A stretch of 64,000 nt of DNA from Thermoplasmata archaeon (GTDB lineage Archaea; Thermoplasmatota; Thermoplasmata; Thermoplasmatales; Thermoplasmataceae): NCBI GenBank assembly GCA_021810045.1, contig JAJZJR010000001.1, forward strand, positions 1-64,000, given 5' to 3'. The translations under genes and the position numbers were made by a program. Positions 2,042 to 58,731 of the stretch are shown here, piece by piece; within the stretch, counting starts at the first letter, position 1; each line of letters begins with the position of its first letter. The notes beneath the pieces were generated by a model. That model was not told where the DNA came from. It worked only from the letters and a program-made list of their open reading frames with translations, and did no database searches.

Positions 2042-2872
2042 TTACTCCTCACCGCCTATTTCTCTCAGTGCCTGTTCATACTCTTCCTGTGATGCAGGCG
2101 GTGCACCGTGGTATTTGGGATTGTTTTCCATATAACTTACTCCTTTCCCTTTTATTGTGTTTGCAATAATGAAAGTCGGCCTGTCTGTGCTTTTCTTTGC
2201 CTCTTCCACGGCAGATATTATTTCATCGAATCTGTGCCCGTTAATTTCTATTGTGTTCCAGCCAAAACTGGAAACCATTGCTTTTATGTTCCCCAGTGGC
2301 ATTATATCCTTTGTATAACCATCAAGCTGAACGCCGTTCTTGTCCAGAATTACAATTAAATTATTGAGCTTGTACTTTGCACCGGCCATGAGGGCTTCCC
2401 ATATACTGCCCTCCTCAATTTCGCCATCGCCCACGATGACGAAAACGTGATAGTCCTTGGAATCAAGTTTCCCGGCAAGTGCCATTCCTACACCGATTCC
2501 GAGACCCTGACCCAGTGAACCGGTTGATGCTTCGACCCCGGGAACGCCTCTGTGTACATGACCCTCGAGCTTTGAATTCAGCTTCCTGAACCCTGTTAGA
2601 AGGGATTCCGGGAAAAAGCCCCTAATCGACAAAGCCGCATAAAGGCCTGGTGACGCGTGTCCTTTACTCAGGATAAGGCGATCTCTGTCAGGATTGATAG
2701 GATCGAGAGGATCTATATTCATTTCCTTGAAATAAAGTACAGCAAGTATGTCGGCAATGCTGAGGGATCCACCCGGATGTCCGCTCTTAGCGGAATAAAC
2801 CATTTCAATTATTTTTCTTCTAATGCCGGTTGCTATGTTCTTCAGGTCAGCCTCTTTGTATTGTTCCATCAA
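2042..2872 (-). CDS. Transketolase, N-terminal (TPP-binding) subunit
   Basis: 276 residues, the TPP pyrophosphate-binding half of a split transketolase. The thiamine motif begins at GDGEIEEGS and ends near DKNGVQ, with LSKGHASPGLYAAL and GSLGQGLGIGVGMA upstream as in transketolases. First gene of a leftward operon with the C-terminal subunit and transaldolase. A TATA-like AT-rich stretch lies near 2935-2960. Two adjacent Met codons leave the start ambiguous by one residue. Confidence 0.93.
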   Translation of the reverse strand: MMEQYKEADLKNIATGIRRKIIEMVYSAKSGHPGGSLSIADILAVLYFKEMNIDPLDPINPDRDRLILSKGHASPGLYAALSIRGFFPESLLTGFRKLNSKLEGHVHRGVPGVEASTGSLGQGLGIGVGMALAGKLDSKDYHVFVIVGDGEIEEGSIWEALMAGAKYKLNNLIVILDKNGVQLDGYTKDIMPLGNIKAMVSSFGWNTIEINGHRFDEIISAVEEAKKSTDRPTFIIANTIKGKGVSYMENNPKYHGAPPASQEEYEQALREIGGEE

Positions 2873-51723: not shown

Positions 51724-53382
51724 TTAATCCTTTGACATGAGTTTTTCCCTGAGCATGGAAGTTACATATCCCTTCGCCTGAGAGAACGTGAGTTTCGGAG
51801 GCATTGGTTTCTCATCGGGATCAACAACCACATCAAGAACTCCGGGCCCATCATGTTTCAGGAACCTGATAATGGCATCTTGGAGTTCACCCGGCTTTTC
51901 CACCCTTTCACCGTAAAGGCCTATAGATTCCGCAAGCTTTCCAAAATGAGGGTTCAACAGATCTACGCCCCATTCCGGGTAACCCATTACTTCCTGCTCA
52001 AATTTGATCATTCCCAGTTTTGAATTGTTGAATACTATGACCTTAATTGGCCGGTTATACTTTTTCGCAGTGATAAGTTCCATCATGGTCATGGCAAAAC
52101 TACCATCTCCGACAAGGGCAACTATGGGCTTATCTGATGCAAATGAGGCCCCGACGGCCGCCGGTATTCCAACACCCATGCTGCCAAGCCAAGGAGAAAA
52201 CAGGAAGGTTCTGTTCCCATGTGTTCGAATGTTTCTCATTCCCCAAACTGTGACATTGCCTGTATCCACCACAACAACAGCATCATCGGGCATATGATCG
52301 GAAATCAGCCTGGCAACTCTTTGTGGACGAATTTTGTCGATACCCTGAGCTTCTTCCTGTTCAAGGGTTTCTATCCATTTTTTCTTCTCAGCCTGGAACT
52401 CTTTATAGTATTTGTATGATTTTTCCCGGGTGTTCAACGAGGAAAGGAATGACTTTATAGAACAGACATAAGGAAGTGTTGCAGGAAATCTTTTGCCGAT
52501 GTTTGATGGATTTATGTCAACCTGAATGGTCTTGGTTCCCTTCTTTATGAAATTGTAATACGGGAAGGATGTCCCAAGAAAAATAATAAGATCTGAACCG
52601 TCCATGGCAGAAATTGATGGTTTGGAACCCAATAGGCCAATCCCTCCCAGAACCCTGTCATCAAAATCACTGAGGAGACCTTTTCCATTGAGTGCATAAA
52701 TAACGGGAGCACCAATTTTTTCTGATAGTGCCATTACTTCCTCTTCGCAGCCCTTGATACCTCTTCCCGCCATTATGACCGGTTTTTCACTGGAATTTAT
52801 TGCCCTTTCCGCAGCAGATGGATCAATTTTGTAATCGACCTGAAAATCCGATTCCAGTTTTATTTCAAAATTTGTTTTTGATGGCATCCTTAATATATCC
52901 ACGGGAAGTGTCAGGTGAGAAACACCTTTCTTCACTTTTGCCTCCTTGCAGGCTCTCCATGTGATATAATCAGCGGAGTCGGGATGAAGGATCTGCTTGC
53001 TGTAAACTGAAACATCCTCGAAAAGCCTGTTCAGGTTTACCTCCTGGAAATAATCCCTTCCCAGCAGATCTGTTTCAACCTGGCCTGTCAATGCTATGAC
53101 AGAACAGCCGTCCATCTTAGCTTCATATAACCCATTGAGAAGATGTATGGAGCCTGGGCCAGAAGTGCCCATGCAGGCGGTTAGTTCCCCGGTGATCCTG
53201 GATTCATAGGCAGCTTCCAGGGCACCTCCTTCTTCATGCCTGACTTGCACATATTGAATTTGAGTGTTTTTTCTTATGGCATCCACCAGTGGATCAATGG
53301 AGTCACCGGGAACACCGTAGATTCGCTTTACTCCTGCAGTCACCAGCGTTTCAATAATCTGTTCTGCTACTGTCTGTGCCAT
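51724..53382 (-). CDS. poxB: TPP-dependent pyruvate oxidase/dehydrogenase (PoxB-like)
   Basis: 552 residues in the standard three-domain TPP-enzyme layout. RHEEGGALEAAYESRITGELTACMGTSGPGSIHLLNGLYEA has the cofactor-activating Glu and the PoxB-type GTSGPGSIHLLNGLYDAK motif; the TPP site is ALVGDGSFAMTMMELITAKKYNRPIKVIVFNN. The overall pattern fits pyruvate:quinone oxidoreductase, giving acetate and CO2, rather than acetolactate synthase. It lacks a clear C-terminal lipid-binding helix as in E. coli PoxB, so the electron acceptor is open. Confidence 0.87.
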   Translation of the reverse strand: MAQTVAEQIIETLVTAGVKRIYGVPGDSIDPLVDAIRKNTQIQYVQVRHEEGGALEAAYESRITGELTACMGTSGPGSIHLLNGLYEAKMDGCSVIALTGQVETDLLGRDYFQEVNLNRLFEDVSVYSKQILHPDSADYITWRACKEAKVKKGVSHLTLPVDILRMPSKTNFEIKLESDFQVDYKIDPSAAERAINSSEKPVIMAGRGIKGCEEEVMALSEKIGAPVIYALNGKGLLSDFDDRVLGGIGLLGSKPSISAMDGSDLIIFLGTSFPYYNFIKKGTKTIQVDINPSNIGKRFPATLPYVCSIKSFLSSLNTREKSYKYYKEFQAEKKKWIETLEQEEAQGIDKIRPQRVARLISDHMPDDAVVVVDTGNVTVWGMRNIRTHGNRTFLFSPWLGSMGVGIPAAVGASFASDKPIVALVGDGSFAMTMMELITAKKYNRPIKVIVFNNSKLGMIKFEQEVMGYPEWGVDLLNPHFGKLAESIGLYGERVEKPGELQDAIIRFLKHDGPGVLDVVVDPDEKPMPPKLTFSQAKGYVTSMLREKLMSKD

Positions 53383-53488: not shown

Positions 53489-53560
53489 GGATAGGTGGCA
53501 GAGCGGTTATGCGTGGGACTGCAGATCCCATCTATTAGGGTTCGAATCCCTACCTATCCT
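53489..53560 (+). tRNA. tRNA-Cys (anticodon GCA)
   Basis: Plus-strand cloverleaf: acceptor GGATAGG/CCTATCC, T arm with loop TTCGAAT, anticodon loop CTGCAGA giving GCA (53521-53523). Discriminator T. The last 14 nt and the 4 nt after them are repeated at 54748, marking an integration site. Confidence 0.95.
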
Positions 53561-53564
53561 CTTT
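53547..53564 (+). repeat. Attachment-site repeat, left (in tRNA-Cys)
   Basis: tccctacctatcctcttt, covering the 3' end of tRNA-Cys plus four bases, is exactly repeated at 54748-54765. Placement in a tRNA 3' end is typical of tyrosine-integrase att sites. Confidence 0.8.
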
Positions 53565-53639
53565 CGTTCGAGTCTGGCATTCAACTGAGGCGTTCCAACC
53601 GGAATCATTTATGATGTTTAATCATATAAAAAAGAGATA

Positions 53640-54140
53640 ATGATGGATACGCGAGTCTTGTTGAAAAAACCAAGTAAGGAAGACGTTGAAAAAATGTTTG
53701 AGATCCTGGAAAACTCGCTGAGTCAGTACCTGAGAGTCAATGATATTGCTTCAGAGAATAATCAGTTAATCGTCAACAGGGACATCGTTGAGGAATAAGT
53801 GCTAAACGACGATTATCTGTGCATTGTTGCTTTGGTTGAATCGCAAATCGCAGGATGGCTTGCAGGCAGTTGAAAAAGTACCATCCTCTCTGAGCACGGG
53901 TGCTCATTTGAAGAATTTTATATCGAAGAGATAGTGGTCGATTCTCGTTACAGAAAGTTAGGCATCGGCAGCTTTCTGTTAAGCAAAATTCGAATGGACA
54001 ATCTGAAAAGTATTGTTGTCGATACCCCATTGATTAACGAACAGGCAATTGCTTTCTATGAGCATATCGGGTTTGTGAAAGTCAATGGTTTAACGGAAGA
54101 GTTTTCCAGGAACTGGACCTGGATGTTGAAGATAGTTTGA
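53640..54140 (+). pseudogene. GNAT acetyltransferase interrupted by two in-frame stops
   Basis: A single frame runs from ATG 53640/53643 to TGA 54138 and reads as a complete GNAT protein: KKPSKEDVEKMFEILENSL, then IAGWLAGS, IEEIVVDSRYRKLGIGSFLLSKI (acetyl-CoA loop) and INEQAIAFYEHIGFVKV. Within it are TAA at 53796-53798 and TGA at 53871-53873, with no frameshift. Two independent nonsense changes are the simple reading. The gene is in an island between tRNA-Cys att repeats, so loss of function after transfer fits. Confidence 0.78.
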
Positions 54141-54165
54141 AAGCACATGAGCACATGTTTGATCT

Positions 54166-54426
54166 CTATAGATCGTCATAAACATTCTTTCTGTTTCCAA
54201 TATCAACTACGAGGATCACAAGGTGTTCTCTTTCTATGCTCATGATTATCCTGTATTTACCGGTTCTCAAACTGTAAAGCGGAACTCCCTTGAGCCGTTT
54301 GACATAGTGAAACGGATTCTTACTGACAGTACCGATTTTCTCCAGAATTCTTTCAGAGTCGACTCTGTCCAATTTTTCCAGGGTATTGACTGACGACTCA
54401 GTCCACTTGACTTCGTAATCAGGCAA
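54166..54426 (-). CDS. RelE/ParE-family toxin
   Basis: 86 residues. The fold is recognisable from YEVKWTESSVNTLEKLDRVDSERILEKI and the basic strand VKRLKGVPLYSLRTGKYRIIMSIE, ending VDIGNRKNVYDDL, where Arg/Lys and Tyr residues cut mRNA in RelE toxins. The start overlaps the antitoxin gene by 8 bp, the usual arrangement. Confidence 0.88.
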   Translation of the reverse strand: MPDYEVKWTESSVNTLEKLDRVDSERILEKIGTVSKNPFHYVKRLKGVPLYSLRTGKYRIIMSIEREHLVILVVDIGNRKNVYDDL

Positions 54427-54649
54427 TCTTTAGCCTCTTTTTGACTTCATCAGTGGTATAAACTCGCCCTTCCTTGATATCTTTCAGGGACATTTCTATT
54501 CTCTGAATAGTTTCTTTAGAAAGAGGTTCTTCATCTTCTGCGAGTTCGGATAGTCTTCTTATCACTGAGTCGTAGGATTCATTCGGGTACAATCGTAAAG
54601 AATTGAGCTTATCCTTGAGGTCCTTTTTGACCTGAATTGTTGTTTCCAT
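54419..54649 (-). CDS. RelB/VapB-like antitoxin
   Basis: 76 residues. N-terminal TTIQVKKDLKDKLNSLRLYPNESYDSVIRRLSEL is a ribbon-helix-helix DNA-binding pattern; the C-terminal EMSLKDIKEGRVYTTDEVKKRL is the toxin-wrapping helix seen in archaeal antitoxins next to RelE. Upstream gene of the pair and likely self-repressing. Confidence 0.85.
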   Translation of the reverse strand: METTIQVKKDLKDKLNSLRLYPNESYDSVIRRLSELAEDEEPLSKETIQRIEMSLKDIKEGRVYTTDEVKKRLKIA

Positions 54650-54726
54650 GATTATGTAATTATTTATATGTAGTTAAAGCTTATTACAGCTCTTTACGAA
54701 TACATATAGTACCTTATTGTTGCTAT

Positions 54727-54751
54727 CCACTTAATTAATTACACAACTCCC
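54727..54751 (+). repeat. Imperfect direct repeat, left of S41 gene
   Basis: ccacttaattaattacacaac plus tccc matches ccacttaattacacaaccc at 56521-56539 apart from an extra atta and one t. It overlaps the right att repeat. Confidence 0.45.
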
Positions 54752-54765
54752 TACCTATCCTCTTT
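54748..54765 (+). repeat. Attachment-site repeat, right
   Basis: Exact 18-bp copy of the tRNA-Cys 3' end (53547-53564). The interval between the copies (1,183 bp) holds only the broken GNAT gene and the toxin-antitoxin pair; no integrase gene is present. Confidence 0.8.
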
Positions 54766-54920: not shown

Positions 54921-56438
54921 TCATCTTGACAGTATCAGCTCTTTGGTTTCCATGAGAATTGTATTTGAATCCCATTTATGCTCTTTGAAATTCTCTACTC
55001 CTATTGATATATCGGGTTTGATGTCAAAGAATAAAGGTTCATCAGGATACTTTAACATTAATTTTGATGAGACCCAACCTTTGAGTCCTGATATATCCAG
55101 GGAGAAACGAATAGTATTCGTGAATGCATTGGCAGCTTGAGATGGAGATATCCCAATTACAGTTGCCCCACATTTTTTCAGTATGGATAAAAGATCGAAA
55201 CCTGCACTGAATGTTCGAGCAGAACATAACACATATACCCTTAAGCCACTAGCTGGATTGTAACTCTTTAGATAATTCGTAAAAGTAGGCGATAATATAA
55301 CAATATCTTCCCACTCTTTGAGGTTCATCCCCCTCTTTCCTGAGAGCCACTTATCCATTTCCTGAAAATTATATTCGTTGAAAGGGTCTACATTTCCCAT
55401 AACGTTAAATTGGTGTCTATACCATGTTGAATACCTTTCTATGTCATATCCCATATCTACTTCCAGAGCTCTGTTCCCGTAGAGAAAATATGCTAAAATA
55501 TGCGATAAGTAAGAGTTGCCGCCGTTATTCTTCTGCAGATCCACAACTATATCCTTGATACCTTTATCCCCCATAGCCTTAAGGAGCTCGATAACTGCCT
55601 CAGAGGCTGATGGAATTACAGATATGATTTCCTCAATCCCTCCATTGGTTTCAATTCCTTGTCTTGATAGAAGTTCTCTGATAAATGATTCACTGGCCCC
55701 AGATTTCAACTGTGATTCGTAGTTTTCCCGATATTTCCTCATGGAGTCGATCCTGAGATATCCGATCCTATTTTCAAGTATTCCATGTGAAATATCTGAC
55801 TCAGAGGATATGGGAAAATCCAATGAATTATTTTCCATAAGTCCACCAGGCGGTTCTTTACTGCAGGATATGGTAATCCTCTGGATTGAGTTGTTTTCAT
55901 GAGACATAATAGAGAAGATTGCCTTGTCCATATCACCGGTGCCATTTCCGGTAAGAGATGATATGATGCATGGATCCTTAAGAGCATCTGCAAGATGGAT
56001 GAGATTGTTATAGGCTCCATTCGCTCCTCTTATCCCAATGATTCTTGACAGTAAGTCTTTCAGAGGAATATCGTTGACAGCTACGAGATGATTTCCGATA
56101 AGATTGCGGTACTTACTTTCGTATACACCTATTACGATGAGTTTCTCATCTATAGGTTCAAATTCAATCCAGAAGCGTCCATTATGATACCCCATCGGAT
56201 CCATAAATGTATGGCCATCACCCACAAGTGCTGCAATTTTAGAGGCCAGGGTATGCAGTTGTGAAAGATCCAGGGTTTCCGGTAATTCTTTAAGAAATTC
56301 ATTAACCTTGATGAAAAACTTTACCTGTGAACCCACATTCAAGAAAGGGTCTGGATGTGCTTCTGTCAATATTTTGATGAGTTTTGACATATCCGATAAC
56401 ACTTCCTCTCTTGTGTACCTTAGAAGTGAGCTGCCCAT
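54921..56438 (-). CDS. S41-family peptidase
   Basis: 505 residues. An N-terminal helical region (VGDGHTFMDP typical of S41), then the protease core with IKDIVVDLQKNNGGNSYLSHILAYFL and the catalytic Ser in VLCSARTFSAGFDLLSILKK. No signal peptide, so it may be intracellular like tricorn-related peptidases. Lies between the tRNA-Cys island and an imperfect repeat at 56521, suggesting it too is accessory. Confidence 0.83.
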   Translation of the reverse strand: MGSSLLRYTREEVLSDMSKLIKILTEAHPDPFLNVGSQVKFFIKVNEFLKELPETLDLSQLHTLASKIAALVGDGHTFMDPMGYHNGRFWIEFEPIDEKLIVIGVYESKYRNLIGNHLVAVNDIPLKDLLSRIIGIRGANGAYNNLIHLADALKDPCIISSLTGNGTGDMDKAIFSIMSHENNSIQRITISCSKEPPGGLMENNSLDFPISSESDISHGILENRIGYLRIDSMRKYRENYESQLKSGASESFIRELLSRQGIETNGGIEEIISVIPSASEAVIELLKAMGDKGIKDIVVDLQKNNGGNSYLSHILAYFLYGNRALEVDMGYDIERYSTWYRHQFNVMGNVDPFNEYNFQEMDKWLSGKRGMNLKEWEDIVILSPTFTNYLKSYNPASGLRVYVLCSARTFSAGFDLLSILKKCGATVIGISPSQAANAFTNTIRFSLDISGLKGWVSSKLMLKYPDEPLFFDIKPDISIGVENFKEHKWDSNTILMETKELILSR

Positions 56439-56637: not shown

Positions 56638-58731
56638 ATGATGCACGCAAAAGGCACTTTCCAAATTGAGAGGGATTTTAAGATAAAGCCAGAAGACTTT
56701 TCTGGCATTTTTCCTATTCTCGAGAAGACCTCAAAAGGAACAGTACTGCTCGAAAGCCAGACCCCTGATGGCAACTCAATCCTTGTATGGAATCCTGTTG
56801 CAACAATAGCAGTCTATTCCGACTTTGTGGATATTCAGAATCATGGGGGTGTTGATTTGCCAAACCCTCCATTGAGGCCTTCACAGGTCCCCAAATTTCT
56901 CCAGGAGGTACTTGACCGGTACAACGTGCCAAACAACAAACCGGGTTACGAAGCGTTTCCATTTGCAGGAGGATTTGTGGGATATGTTGGATATGAATGG
57001 GCTGCAAGACAGGAAAGTACTGCAAAGCCGGATCAGGCTGGCGTTCCACCTTTGTGGTTCGGCCTTTACGACAGGGCATTGGTGTCCAATAGGAATGGAG
57101 AGGTATTTCTGGTTGCAGTACCATCCATAAGAGATGCATCGATCAGAGACGTAAAGAAACAGTTGTATGATGCAGTGTCACACAACTGGGCCCCTCCCCC
57201 CGGTGCTTCGGGATCGGGTGGAATGGTATTTTCTTATGATTTTCCAAAGGACAGGTTCGAAAACGGTGTCAGGAAAATCAGGGACCTCATAAGATCCGGG
57301 GACGTCTATCAGGTCAATATAGCACAACGGATCAGAACCCGGAGAGTTGAACCGTTGCACCTTTATTCCAGATTGAAAAGAGTCAACCCAAGCCCGTTTG
57401 GTGGAATACTTTCCACAGGAGGCTTTACAATAGTATCCAACTCCCCAGAGCGCCTTCTCAAGGTCTCTCCACCGGAAAACGGAATCCGCTGGGCTTCTAC
57501 TAGACCCATAGCTGGCACACGCCCCCGAGGATACGGACAACAGGATTTGCGCAATGAAAGGGCTTTGAGAACTTCAACAAAGGAACTAGCAGAGCACACA
57601 ATGCTGGTGGACCTCTCCCGCAATGATCTTGGAAGAGTGTCCGAGGGAGGAAGCGTGGAAGTTGATGAATTGCTGACCATCGAGCGTTATTCCCACGTAA
57701 TGCACCTGGTATCAAATGTAAGGGGGAAGCTGTCTCCCTCTACAGGGCTTCCGGATCTGTTCCGTGCGCTGATGCCTGGAGGTTCTGTAACAGGAACACC
57801 AAAGATCAATGCAAACTGCATCATCTCAGAAATTGAACCGGTTCCCAGGGGAGCTTACACGGGTTCACTTGGATATATTTCCCTCAATGGCGGCATGGAC
57901 TTCAATATCCTCATTCGCAGTGCCTATTATCCGGCGAACAGCAATGAAATGCACCTGTATGCGGGATCCGGCATTGTTCAGGACTCTGTACCAGCGAGAG
58001 AGTGGAATGAAACCAGGGAAAAAGCTAAAGCAATGCTTGAAGCTATCCTGAATGCTGAACCAAGCGGGAATACATGGAATAAACCAAATATACGATCGTC
58101 CTGGAAGCCTCCCAGTTTCAAACACAAATTCAATGATGCAAATGTTCTTCTAGTCGACAATTACGATTCTTTTACTTATAATCTTGTGCAGTACTTGGCT
58201 GCTCTTGGAGCTGGAGTTTCAGTGGTGAGGAATGATGAGTTATCCTTATCTGAGCTGAAAGCAATGAACCCAACCCACCTGGTCATTTCACCTGGACCAG
58301 GTAAACCAGAAAAATCTGGCGTTTCCATTGATGCCATTCGCGCTTTTGAAGGAATCCCCACAATGGGAGTATGTCTTGGCCATCAGGCAATAATAAAGGC
58401 TTATGGAGGTTCACTGGAACAGGCAAGGCACCCAATGCATGGCAAAACGTCGAAAACAAACCGCATCATCTTTGATGGCCTGGATGATGCCCTTAACGGA
58501 TTACCTCCATCGTTCACCGTGGGAAGATATCATTCACTCCTGGCTAGTGAGGTGCCTGAAACACTCCTTGTAACTGCAAGAACGGAAAACGGTGAAGTAA
58601 TGGCAGTTCAGCACAAGACTTTGCCAACATTCGGAGTGCAGTTTCACCCTGAATCAATACTTACGCAGCAGGGCATAAAGATCTTTGCAAATTTCCTTTC
58701 CATGTCTGGACGCGAAGAGGGCAATAAATGA
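56638..58731 (+). CDS. Fused aminodeoxychorismate synthase (PabB-PabA)
   Basis: 697 residues. Residues 1-470 are a chorismate-binding domain (GDVYQVNIAQRI, LVDLSRNDLGRV, GGSVTGTPKINA, YTGSLGYISLNG). Residues 500-690 are a glutamine amidotransferase (VDNYDSFTYNLVQYL, nucleophile C579 in GVCLGHQAI, H670 and E672 in VQFHPES). The linker is about 30 residues. The downstream PabC-like gene overlaps by 4 bp, so p-aminobenzoate for folate/pterin is more likely than anthranilate, though TrpE/G homology leaves that open. Confidence 0.88.
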   Translation: MMHAKGTFQIERDFKIKPEDFSGIFPILEKTSKGTVLLESQTPDGNSILVWNPVATIAVYSDFVDIQNHGGVDLPNPPLRPSQVPKFLQEVLDRYNVPNNKPGYEAFPFAGGFVGYVGYEWAARQESTAKPDQAGVPPLWFGLYDRALVSNRNGEVFLVAVPSIRDASIRDVKKQLYDAVSHNWAPPPGASGSGGMVFSYDFPKDRFENGVRKIRDLIRSGDVYQVNIAQRIRTRRVEPLHLYSRLKRVNPSPFGGILSTGGFTIVSNSPERLLKVSPPENGIRWASTRPIAGTRPRGYGQQDLRNERALRTSTKELAEHTMLVDLSRNDLGRVSEGGSVEVDELLTIERYSHVMHLVSNVRGKLSPSTGLPDLFRALMPGGSVTGTPKINANCIISEIEPVPRGAYTGSLGYISLNGGMDFNILIRSAYYPANSNEMHLYAGSGIVQDSVPAREWNETREKAKAMLEAILNAEPSGNTWNKPNIRSSWKPPSFKHKFNDANVLLVDNYDSFTYNLVQYLAALGAGVSVVRNDELSLSELKAMNPTHLVISPGPGKPEKSGVSIDAIRAFEGIPTMGVCLGHQAIIKAYGGSLEQARHPMHGKTSKTNRIIFDGLDDALNGLPPSFTVGRYHSLLASEVPETLLVTARTENGEVMAVQHKTLPTFGVQFHPESILTQQGIKIFANFLSMSGREEGNK

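Follow-up and report, generated by a model that had tools for sequence, protein, structure and literature searches.

An integrase-less toxin-antitoxin cassette between tRNA-Cys repeats in a Thermoplasmataceae archaeon, a probable unit of a family-wide array

Streptococcal CIMEs are integrase-less, att-bounded units of 1.2-13 kb that stand in tandem at the 3' ends of tRNA and other genes (PMC7563491). Arrays of gene cassettes are also known from integrons, which have been reported in archaea too (PMC9668308), and tandem integration has been described in archaea (PMC8371274, PMC6563490). In acidophilic archaea, two reports describe islands at tRNA genes, including tRNA-Cys, with toxin-antitoxin (TA) and mercury cargo (PMC12302457; Cuniculiplasma, PMC5155288). 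Here, we analyzed a tRNA-Cys locus in a 64,000-nucleotide stretch (the window), located on contig C41 of the window's own genome, G000 (2.26 Mb, 81 contigs). We consider it likely that the segment behind this tRNA gene is an integrase-less cassette that a Cys-type integrase inserted in trans, that is stabilized by its TA pair and that belongs to a family-wide array.

As presented in Table 1, the 18-mer TCCCTACCTATCCTCTTT was found at the 3' end of the tRNA-Cys gene and again, exactly, at the far side of a short segment. The repeat is 18 bp long and no more, the neighbouring bases mismatching on either side. A third copy was absent from the window even at ≤3 mismatches, a threshold at which shuffled sequences gave a mean of 0.06 matches, and the whole genome holds two exact copies, both at this locus; near-copies on contigs C48 and C52 are without the arm described below and were set aside as chance. 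The locus has the organization of a tRNA-targeted island, with an intact tRNA gene whose 3' end is duplicated at the far end. A sequence search returned 72-nt matches to this tRNA that were 97-100% identical in the closest relatives. No integrase was present between the repeats. The first-pass annotation had reported both the exact repeat and a segment with a toxin, an antitoxin and a GNAT gene but no integrase, and our analysis confirmed the two copies as well as this content. Farther to the right, positions 56638-58731 of the window encode one protein with chorismate-binding and glutamine amidotransferase domains (fused anthranilate synthase type).

Table 1. Features of the tRNA-Cys locus, in window coordinates
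Feature	Position	Strand	Remarks
TPP enzyme (pyruvate dehydrogenase type, PRK06457), left neighbour	51724..53382	-	kept in same-genus G001 (84%)
tRNA-Cys (GCA)	53489..53561	+	ARAGORN; attB target for integration at its 3' end
left att core, within tRNA 3' end	53547..53564	+	exact 18-bp repeat
integrase-less cassette	53565..54747	+	1,183 bp between repeats; unit length 1,201 bp core to core
GNAT acetyltransferase pseudogene	53640..54140	+	in-frame stops TAA 53796-53798, TGA 53871-53873
ParE/RelE-superfamily toxin, 86 aa	54166..54426	-	Pfam PF05016 ParE_toxin, E=4.3e-8, above cut-off
cognate antitoxin (DUF7557, RelB/ParD-like), 76 aa	54419..54649	-	Pfam PF24434, E=3.6e-9
conserved cassette 3' arm TATCCACTTAATTAATTACACAAC	54724..54747	+	arm+core scores 41.3 bits
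right att core, second tRNA 3'-end copy	54748..54765	+	exact 18-bp repeat
S41 peptidase, chromosomal right neighbour outside the island	54921..56438	-	orthologues in G061, G010

Within the cassette, the antitoxin gene lies upstream of the toxin gene and overlaps its start by 8 bp. With a toxin domain above the curated threshold and an adjacent antitoxin gene, the pair is a predicted type II TA system of the ParE/RelE superfamily. The toxin had previously been labelled RelE-type; its domain was recovered, as Pfam ParE_toxin, and the superfamily name describes it better. The antitoxin was also recovered, as DUF7557, and the RHH fold proposed for it is plausible, but no match at a curated threshold establishes RHH, and the NCBIfam RelB/ParD match falls under its cut-off. 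Both TA genes are under purifying selection, with dN/dS values of 0.04-0.18 for the window pairs of the toxin (mostly 0.04-0.2 against homologues) and 0.02-0.07 for those of the antitoxin. The GNAT gene is broken, as had been annotated: aligned to intact homologues, which are 166 aa long and occur in G007, G019, G053, G070, G071, G050 and G074, it shows two in-frame stops and no frameshift. Its C-terminal half matches Acetyltransf_7 above the cut-off.

To place this locus among its relatives, we compared 63 tRNA-Cys loci from the window's family, each searched with the 3' 14-mer of its own tRNA, copies being counted at ≤2 mismatches. The named relatives that share the tRNA 3' end belong to the Thermoplasmata and Thermoplasmatales, the Thermogymnomonas lineage included. 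Same-strand copies numbered 26 in the 523 kb downstream of the tRNA genes and 1 in the 210 kb upstream, and 3 more lay on the opposite strand. The downstream copies lie 0.7-14 kb from tRNA-Cys, with one weak match at 15.8 kb, and two or three follow in a row in G050, G002, G016, G017, G021 and G053; the consecutive units of G050 measure 735, 1,184 and 717 bp. Most of the genomes compared are fragmented MAGs, related cassettes are non-independent observations, and arm-bearing contigs without a tRNA-Cys were assumed to continue from one.

Same-genus and same-family genomes carry differing units between tRNA-Cys and the right flank, with breakpoints at the 3'-end core. Within one genus, G001 and G005 differ in their units but agree in the right flank, which begins to match at the last core. 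G061 is island-free, an S41 peptidase orthologue (56%) standing at +253 behind tRNA-Cys, and is the nearest approach to an unoccupied site that we found. The orthologue of Thermoplasma sp. FL (G010; 65%) stands directly behind an arm+core site. The island is sporadically present, as expected of a tRNA island. The comparison proposed in the first-pass annotation accordingly returned differently occupied sites that break at the tRNA core and one locus without an island, and the gene order conserved in close relatives that had been named as the contrary outcome was not seen in the compared loci. In 8 of the 63 loci, the contig ends 0-6 nt past the tRNA, which would fit a site that varies within the source population; assembly breaks also have other causes. 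G000 itself has a second tRNA-Cys on a 5.6-kb contig (C26, locus L058, 4460-4531, minus strand), 93% identical to that of the window, with an arm+core site at 2802-2832 (minus strand) and its own 1.66-kb unit carrying a methyltransferase and a PIN-domain fragment. This contig may be a contaminant, since its tRNA type resembles that of other genera.

Overall, 33 core-to-core units were delimited, 29 of them smaller than 4.5 kb, and none of the family integrases described below was found inside these 29. Like the window unit, the small units have the structure of CIMEs, att-bounded and without integrase or transfer genes. A TA pair or its relic was present in at least 22 of the 29 by homology to Pfam-assigned proteins, and three more (G044, G000:C26 and G046) probably contain one. 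The TA types comprise ParE/DUF7557, HicBA, a MazE-like antitoxin with a ParE-like toxin, and VapBC-type PIN pairs. Beyond TA genes, the units encode, among other things, GNATs, a 2'-5' RNA ligase-like protein and MFS transporters, and also a methyltransferase, a phosphorylase and an alpha/beta hydrolase. A cassette of G001 (L040, 12230-14368) carries a mercury-type cluster of HxlR, an HMA protein and a pyridine nucleotide-disulphide oxidoreductase, and the first unit behind tRNA-Cys in G005 (L039, 4355-6241) encodes an AriA-like ATPase together with a small TOPRIM/DUF3226-like protein, the two forming a candidate defence pair. Decay is visible in several units, namely an IS3-type transposase within that of G021, a decayed MFS gene in G013 and degenerate cores in G015 and G071. 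In G002, G007 and G017, units are arranged in tandem with integrase elements.

Small units close, just before the tRNA core, with a conserved arm of about 24 bp (consensus TATCCACTTAATTAAWTAAnnGAc); in an alignment of 45 sites, this reads roughly TATCCACTTAATTAA(A/T)TAAnnGA(C/A), then TCCCTACCTATCCTT. The resulting 40-bp arm+core site was scored with a 31-bp weight matrix trained on a subset of the scored sites, and 45 distinct sites, all in one orientation, exceeded 30 bits; among the other matches listed at ≥14 bits, two degenerate ones reached 24 and the rest stayed below 20. As an independent control, a search of 77 genomes for the arm pattern gave 38 matches, spread over 27 genomes and 11 of the 19 genera; the reversed pattern gave 0 matches in the same genomes. 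No exact arm+core match was found in viral contigs. An internal core of G005 (offset 2318) is without the arm and was left uncounted as a boundary. Arm sites also occur away from tRNA-Cys in two single-contig genomes, G017 and G021. The site in G021 (L190, 355239-355269) is 1.5 Mb from tRNA-Cys, with no recognized cassette gene near it; that in G017 (L191, around 1550275) lies beside a mercury-type cluster related to the one of G001.

The comparison of unit contents revealed the same units in different genomes and in different places. The unit of G053 is homologous to that of the window, the two aligning at 72% over 1,289 bp that span the tRNA, the cassette and the second repeat, and partial homologues occur in G005, G007, G019, G020, G021, G050, G070 and G071. 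Unit 2 of G021 matches unit 1 of G091 at 93.2% identity along 1,448 bp, from one core to the next; per 100 bp, identity is 87-98% within the unit and drops to about 26-45% immediately beyond either end. Because the rpoB DNA of these two hosts is only 75% identical, recent transfer is the simplest reading of this unit. In addition, G007 and G019 have a GNAT+TA unit in common at 91.8% behind unrelated DNA (rpoB 74%), and a 773-bp stretch that begins at the core is 96.8% identical between G001 and G021 (rpoB 77%). The GNAT+TA unit comes first behind the tRNA in the window, G021 and G053 and second in G019 and G020; G050 carries the GNAT and the TA genes in two distinct units, each bounded by att sites. 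Taken together, these alignments show that units have passed att-to-att between genera and stand at differing array positions.

We identified a family of tyrosine recombinases of about 440 aa encoded directly behind tRNA genes, in several genomes behind tRNA-Cys. Eight tRNA-Cys members were aligned, and R156, Y280/R283, H301, H310 and Y318 were invariant (roles assigned by inspection), which corresponds to the R...(H/Y)xxR...Y residues of tyrosine recombinases. A fold model of medium confidence (pLDDT 64) matched archaeal Xer (4a8e), XerD, lambda Int, Brujita Int and Cre, so that the predicted fold is also that of a tyrosine recombinase. Two scanned Cys-type integrases matched no Pfam family, and against PHROG only PHROG 1 'integrase' was hit, weakly. 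Genes for tRNA-Pro, -Val, -Ala and -Arg are likewise followed immediately by members of the family (L228-L247). In a tree of 28 integrases, the proteins group by the tRNA next to them (Val, Ala, Pro), and the Cys members form two separate clades. The elements of one Cys clade (G007, G074:C132) close with the same arm as the small cassettes; that of G074:C132 is 15.65 kb long, core-bounded and terminates in the cassette arm. At a fixed offset, the integrase elements have a common right arm, which is not general among small units. Integrase-bearing elements with the same att core, sought on the suggestion of the first-pass annotation, are present in relatives, some with the same arm, and together with the locus comparison they support its proposal of a cassette inserted by an integrase from elsewhere.

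G000 carries four family integrases, of which three were placed in the tree, outside the Cys clades, and the fourth (C14) is unplaced. On its contig C11 (7449-14249), one family integrase and two Phage_integr_3 genes (archaeal virus type) lie within 7 kb. Relatives of the family integrase were found neither among viral contigs nor in plasmid or phage records. An SSV-type (suicidal) integrase was rejected: full-length integrases are intact beside the tRNA and the gene is not split. At a tRNA-Val (GAC) of G016 (L236, 7163-8904), a second copy of the 3' end lies 1,655 bp downstream; the interval encodes an ArsR-like HTH protein, a Cass2/GyrI-like protein and HicBA, and a Val-clade integrase follows.

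Several other explanations were weighed against insertion in trans. Classical decay, which we regard as possible but rather unlikely, would make the small units deletion remnants of integrase elements (strict CIMEs) that kept their ends and TA pair and that rarely or never move alone, being carried along by an adjacent integrase element as it lands. The dead GNAT of the window and the damaged units of G021, G013, G015 and G071 agree with it, TA stabilization would account for what decay retained, and integrase elements are usually tRNA-proximal with small units distal, as for the CIMEs of S. salivarius (PMC7563491). However, we found no larger integrase element with contents homologous to those of the cassettes, many units come first behind the tRNA without an adjoining integrase element, and the right ends of the units are unlike the right arm of the integrase elements, which argues against a simple internal deletion. 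Decay also sits poorly with a unit of identical type recurring across genera with sharp att edges.

These edges also bear on ordinary homologous recombination through the tRNA, the arm and the chromosomal flanks, with att repeats that are old and no integrase acting now. At G021/G091, flanks at background identity leave about 40 bp of homology per end; moreover, almost every genome has a different sequence in the tRNA-proximal slot, and contig ends often coincide with the core. Although DNA uptake and recombination occur in archaea, arms and cores provide short homology and the tRNA is near-identical among close relatives, we judge this explanation improbable. It is exceedingly improbable that the repeat arose by chance or is a conserved non-mobile sequence behind tRNA-Cys; a short T-rich sequence following a tRNA could indeed be a terminator, but an exact 18-mer, so far above the shuffled expectation, copies that number 26 downstream and 4 elsewhere, the attached 24-bp arm, the distances of 0.7-14 kb and the shuffling of units all speak against both. 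A chance repeat was rejected on these grounds; overlap with a conserved gene as the source of the repeat was also rejected.

If the cassette was inserted in trans, as we consider likely, its single site, the AT-rich 3' arm plus one core copy, would have been carried on a circle and would recombine with the core in the tRNA 3' end. The putative catalyst is a tRNA-Cys-specific tyrosine integrase, acting in trans and brought by a larger integrative element; small units lack the right arm of the integrase elements, so the argument that both use one enzyme comes from the 3' arm and core that they have in common. Each insertion would keep the tRNA whole and push the old 3' end outward, and repeated insertions would build a head-to-tail array. 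Insertion would be tRNA-proximal, which the integrase elements next to the tRNA fit, as in streptococcal tandem elements (PMC7563491). The TA pair would stabilize the unit by penalizing its loss, and the GNAT would be cargo, now dead in the window unit. This unit is probably stranded at present, given the broken GNAT and an assembly in which we identified no Cys-type integrase. Mobility in trans, which concerns origin, and a stranded relic, which concerns present state, had been offered as alternatives in the first-pass annotation and do not exclude each other.

Compared with described systems, the cassettes resemble CIMEs (PMC7563491) as integrase-less att-bounded units in tandem with integrase elements, the intact ones nearest the target. 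Unlike CIMEs, they are archaeal and without an identified ICE/IME parent, have a conserved layout of cargo gene, TA pair, 3' arm and core, and recur in several genera, often without an adjoining integrase element. As to derivation, the 3' arm is common with some integrase elements, the right ends differ, and no parent with the same cargo was found. With integron arrays (PMC9668308) they have in common small head-to-tail units with one site each, a fixed anchor and TA cargo, and with CALINs the lack of a local integrase. In contrast to integrons, the anchor is a tRNA 3' end and the site a 40-bp arm plus tRNA core; read by eye, these sites are linear, without the folded RYYYAAC...GTTRRRY motif of attC, and no IntI turned up in the Pfam and PHROG scans of the Cys-type integrases. 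Judged by its recombination site, the cassette array is not an integron. The 8-16 kb units found here resemble archaeal tRNA-targeting elements with tyrosine recombinases (PMC8371274) in having an integrase beside the tRNA, att repeats derived from the tRNA 3' end and prim-pol or ATPase genes, but the small accompanying units are without integrase or replication genes. The islands of PMC12302457 and PMC5155288 come from the same broad group of organisms and agree in tRNA sites and in TA and mercury cargo; they were called by composition-based tools, and the accessible parts of these reports do not describe small att-bounded units, a shared arm or array shuffling. While tRNA islands, tandem integration and CIMEs are known, we found no account in the openly accessible literature of small units, a shared arm or such an array, and small TA-loaded units with a shared arm in a tRNA-Cys array are what we did not find described.

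More tentatively, and with considerable doubt, these loci may represent a tRNA-anchored cassette system, in which an integrase clade gathers TA-stabilized cassettes through a single asymmetric site and builds them into arrays that can be reordered, at tRNA-Cys and probably also behind further tRNA genes such as tRNA-Val; such a system would be integron-like and independent of IntI and attC. Junction PCR at tRNA-Cys offers a cheap assay target in culturable acidophiles and acid-mine communities, and the arrays provide a concrete setting for asking whether TA pairs stabilize tiny mobile units. If the cassettes move in trans, standard island or integron callers would overlook units of this size, and the Thermoplasmatales would have an integron-like means of acquiring, reordering and keeping small gene packages at a tRNA gene, among them TA pairs, defence genes and mercury resistance.
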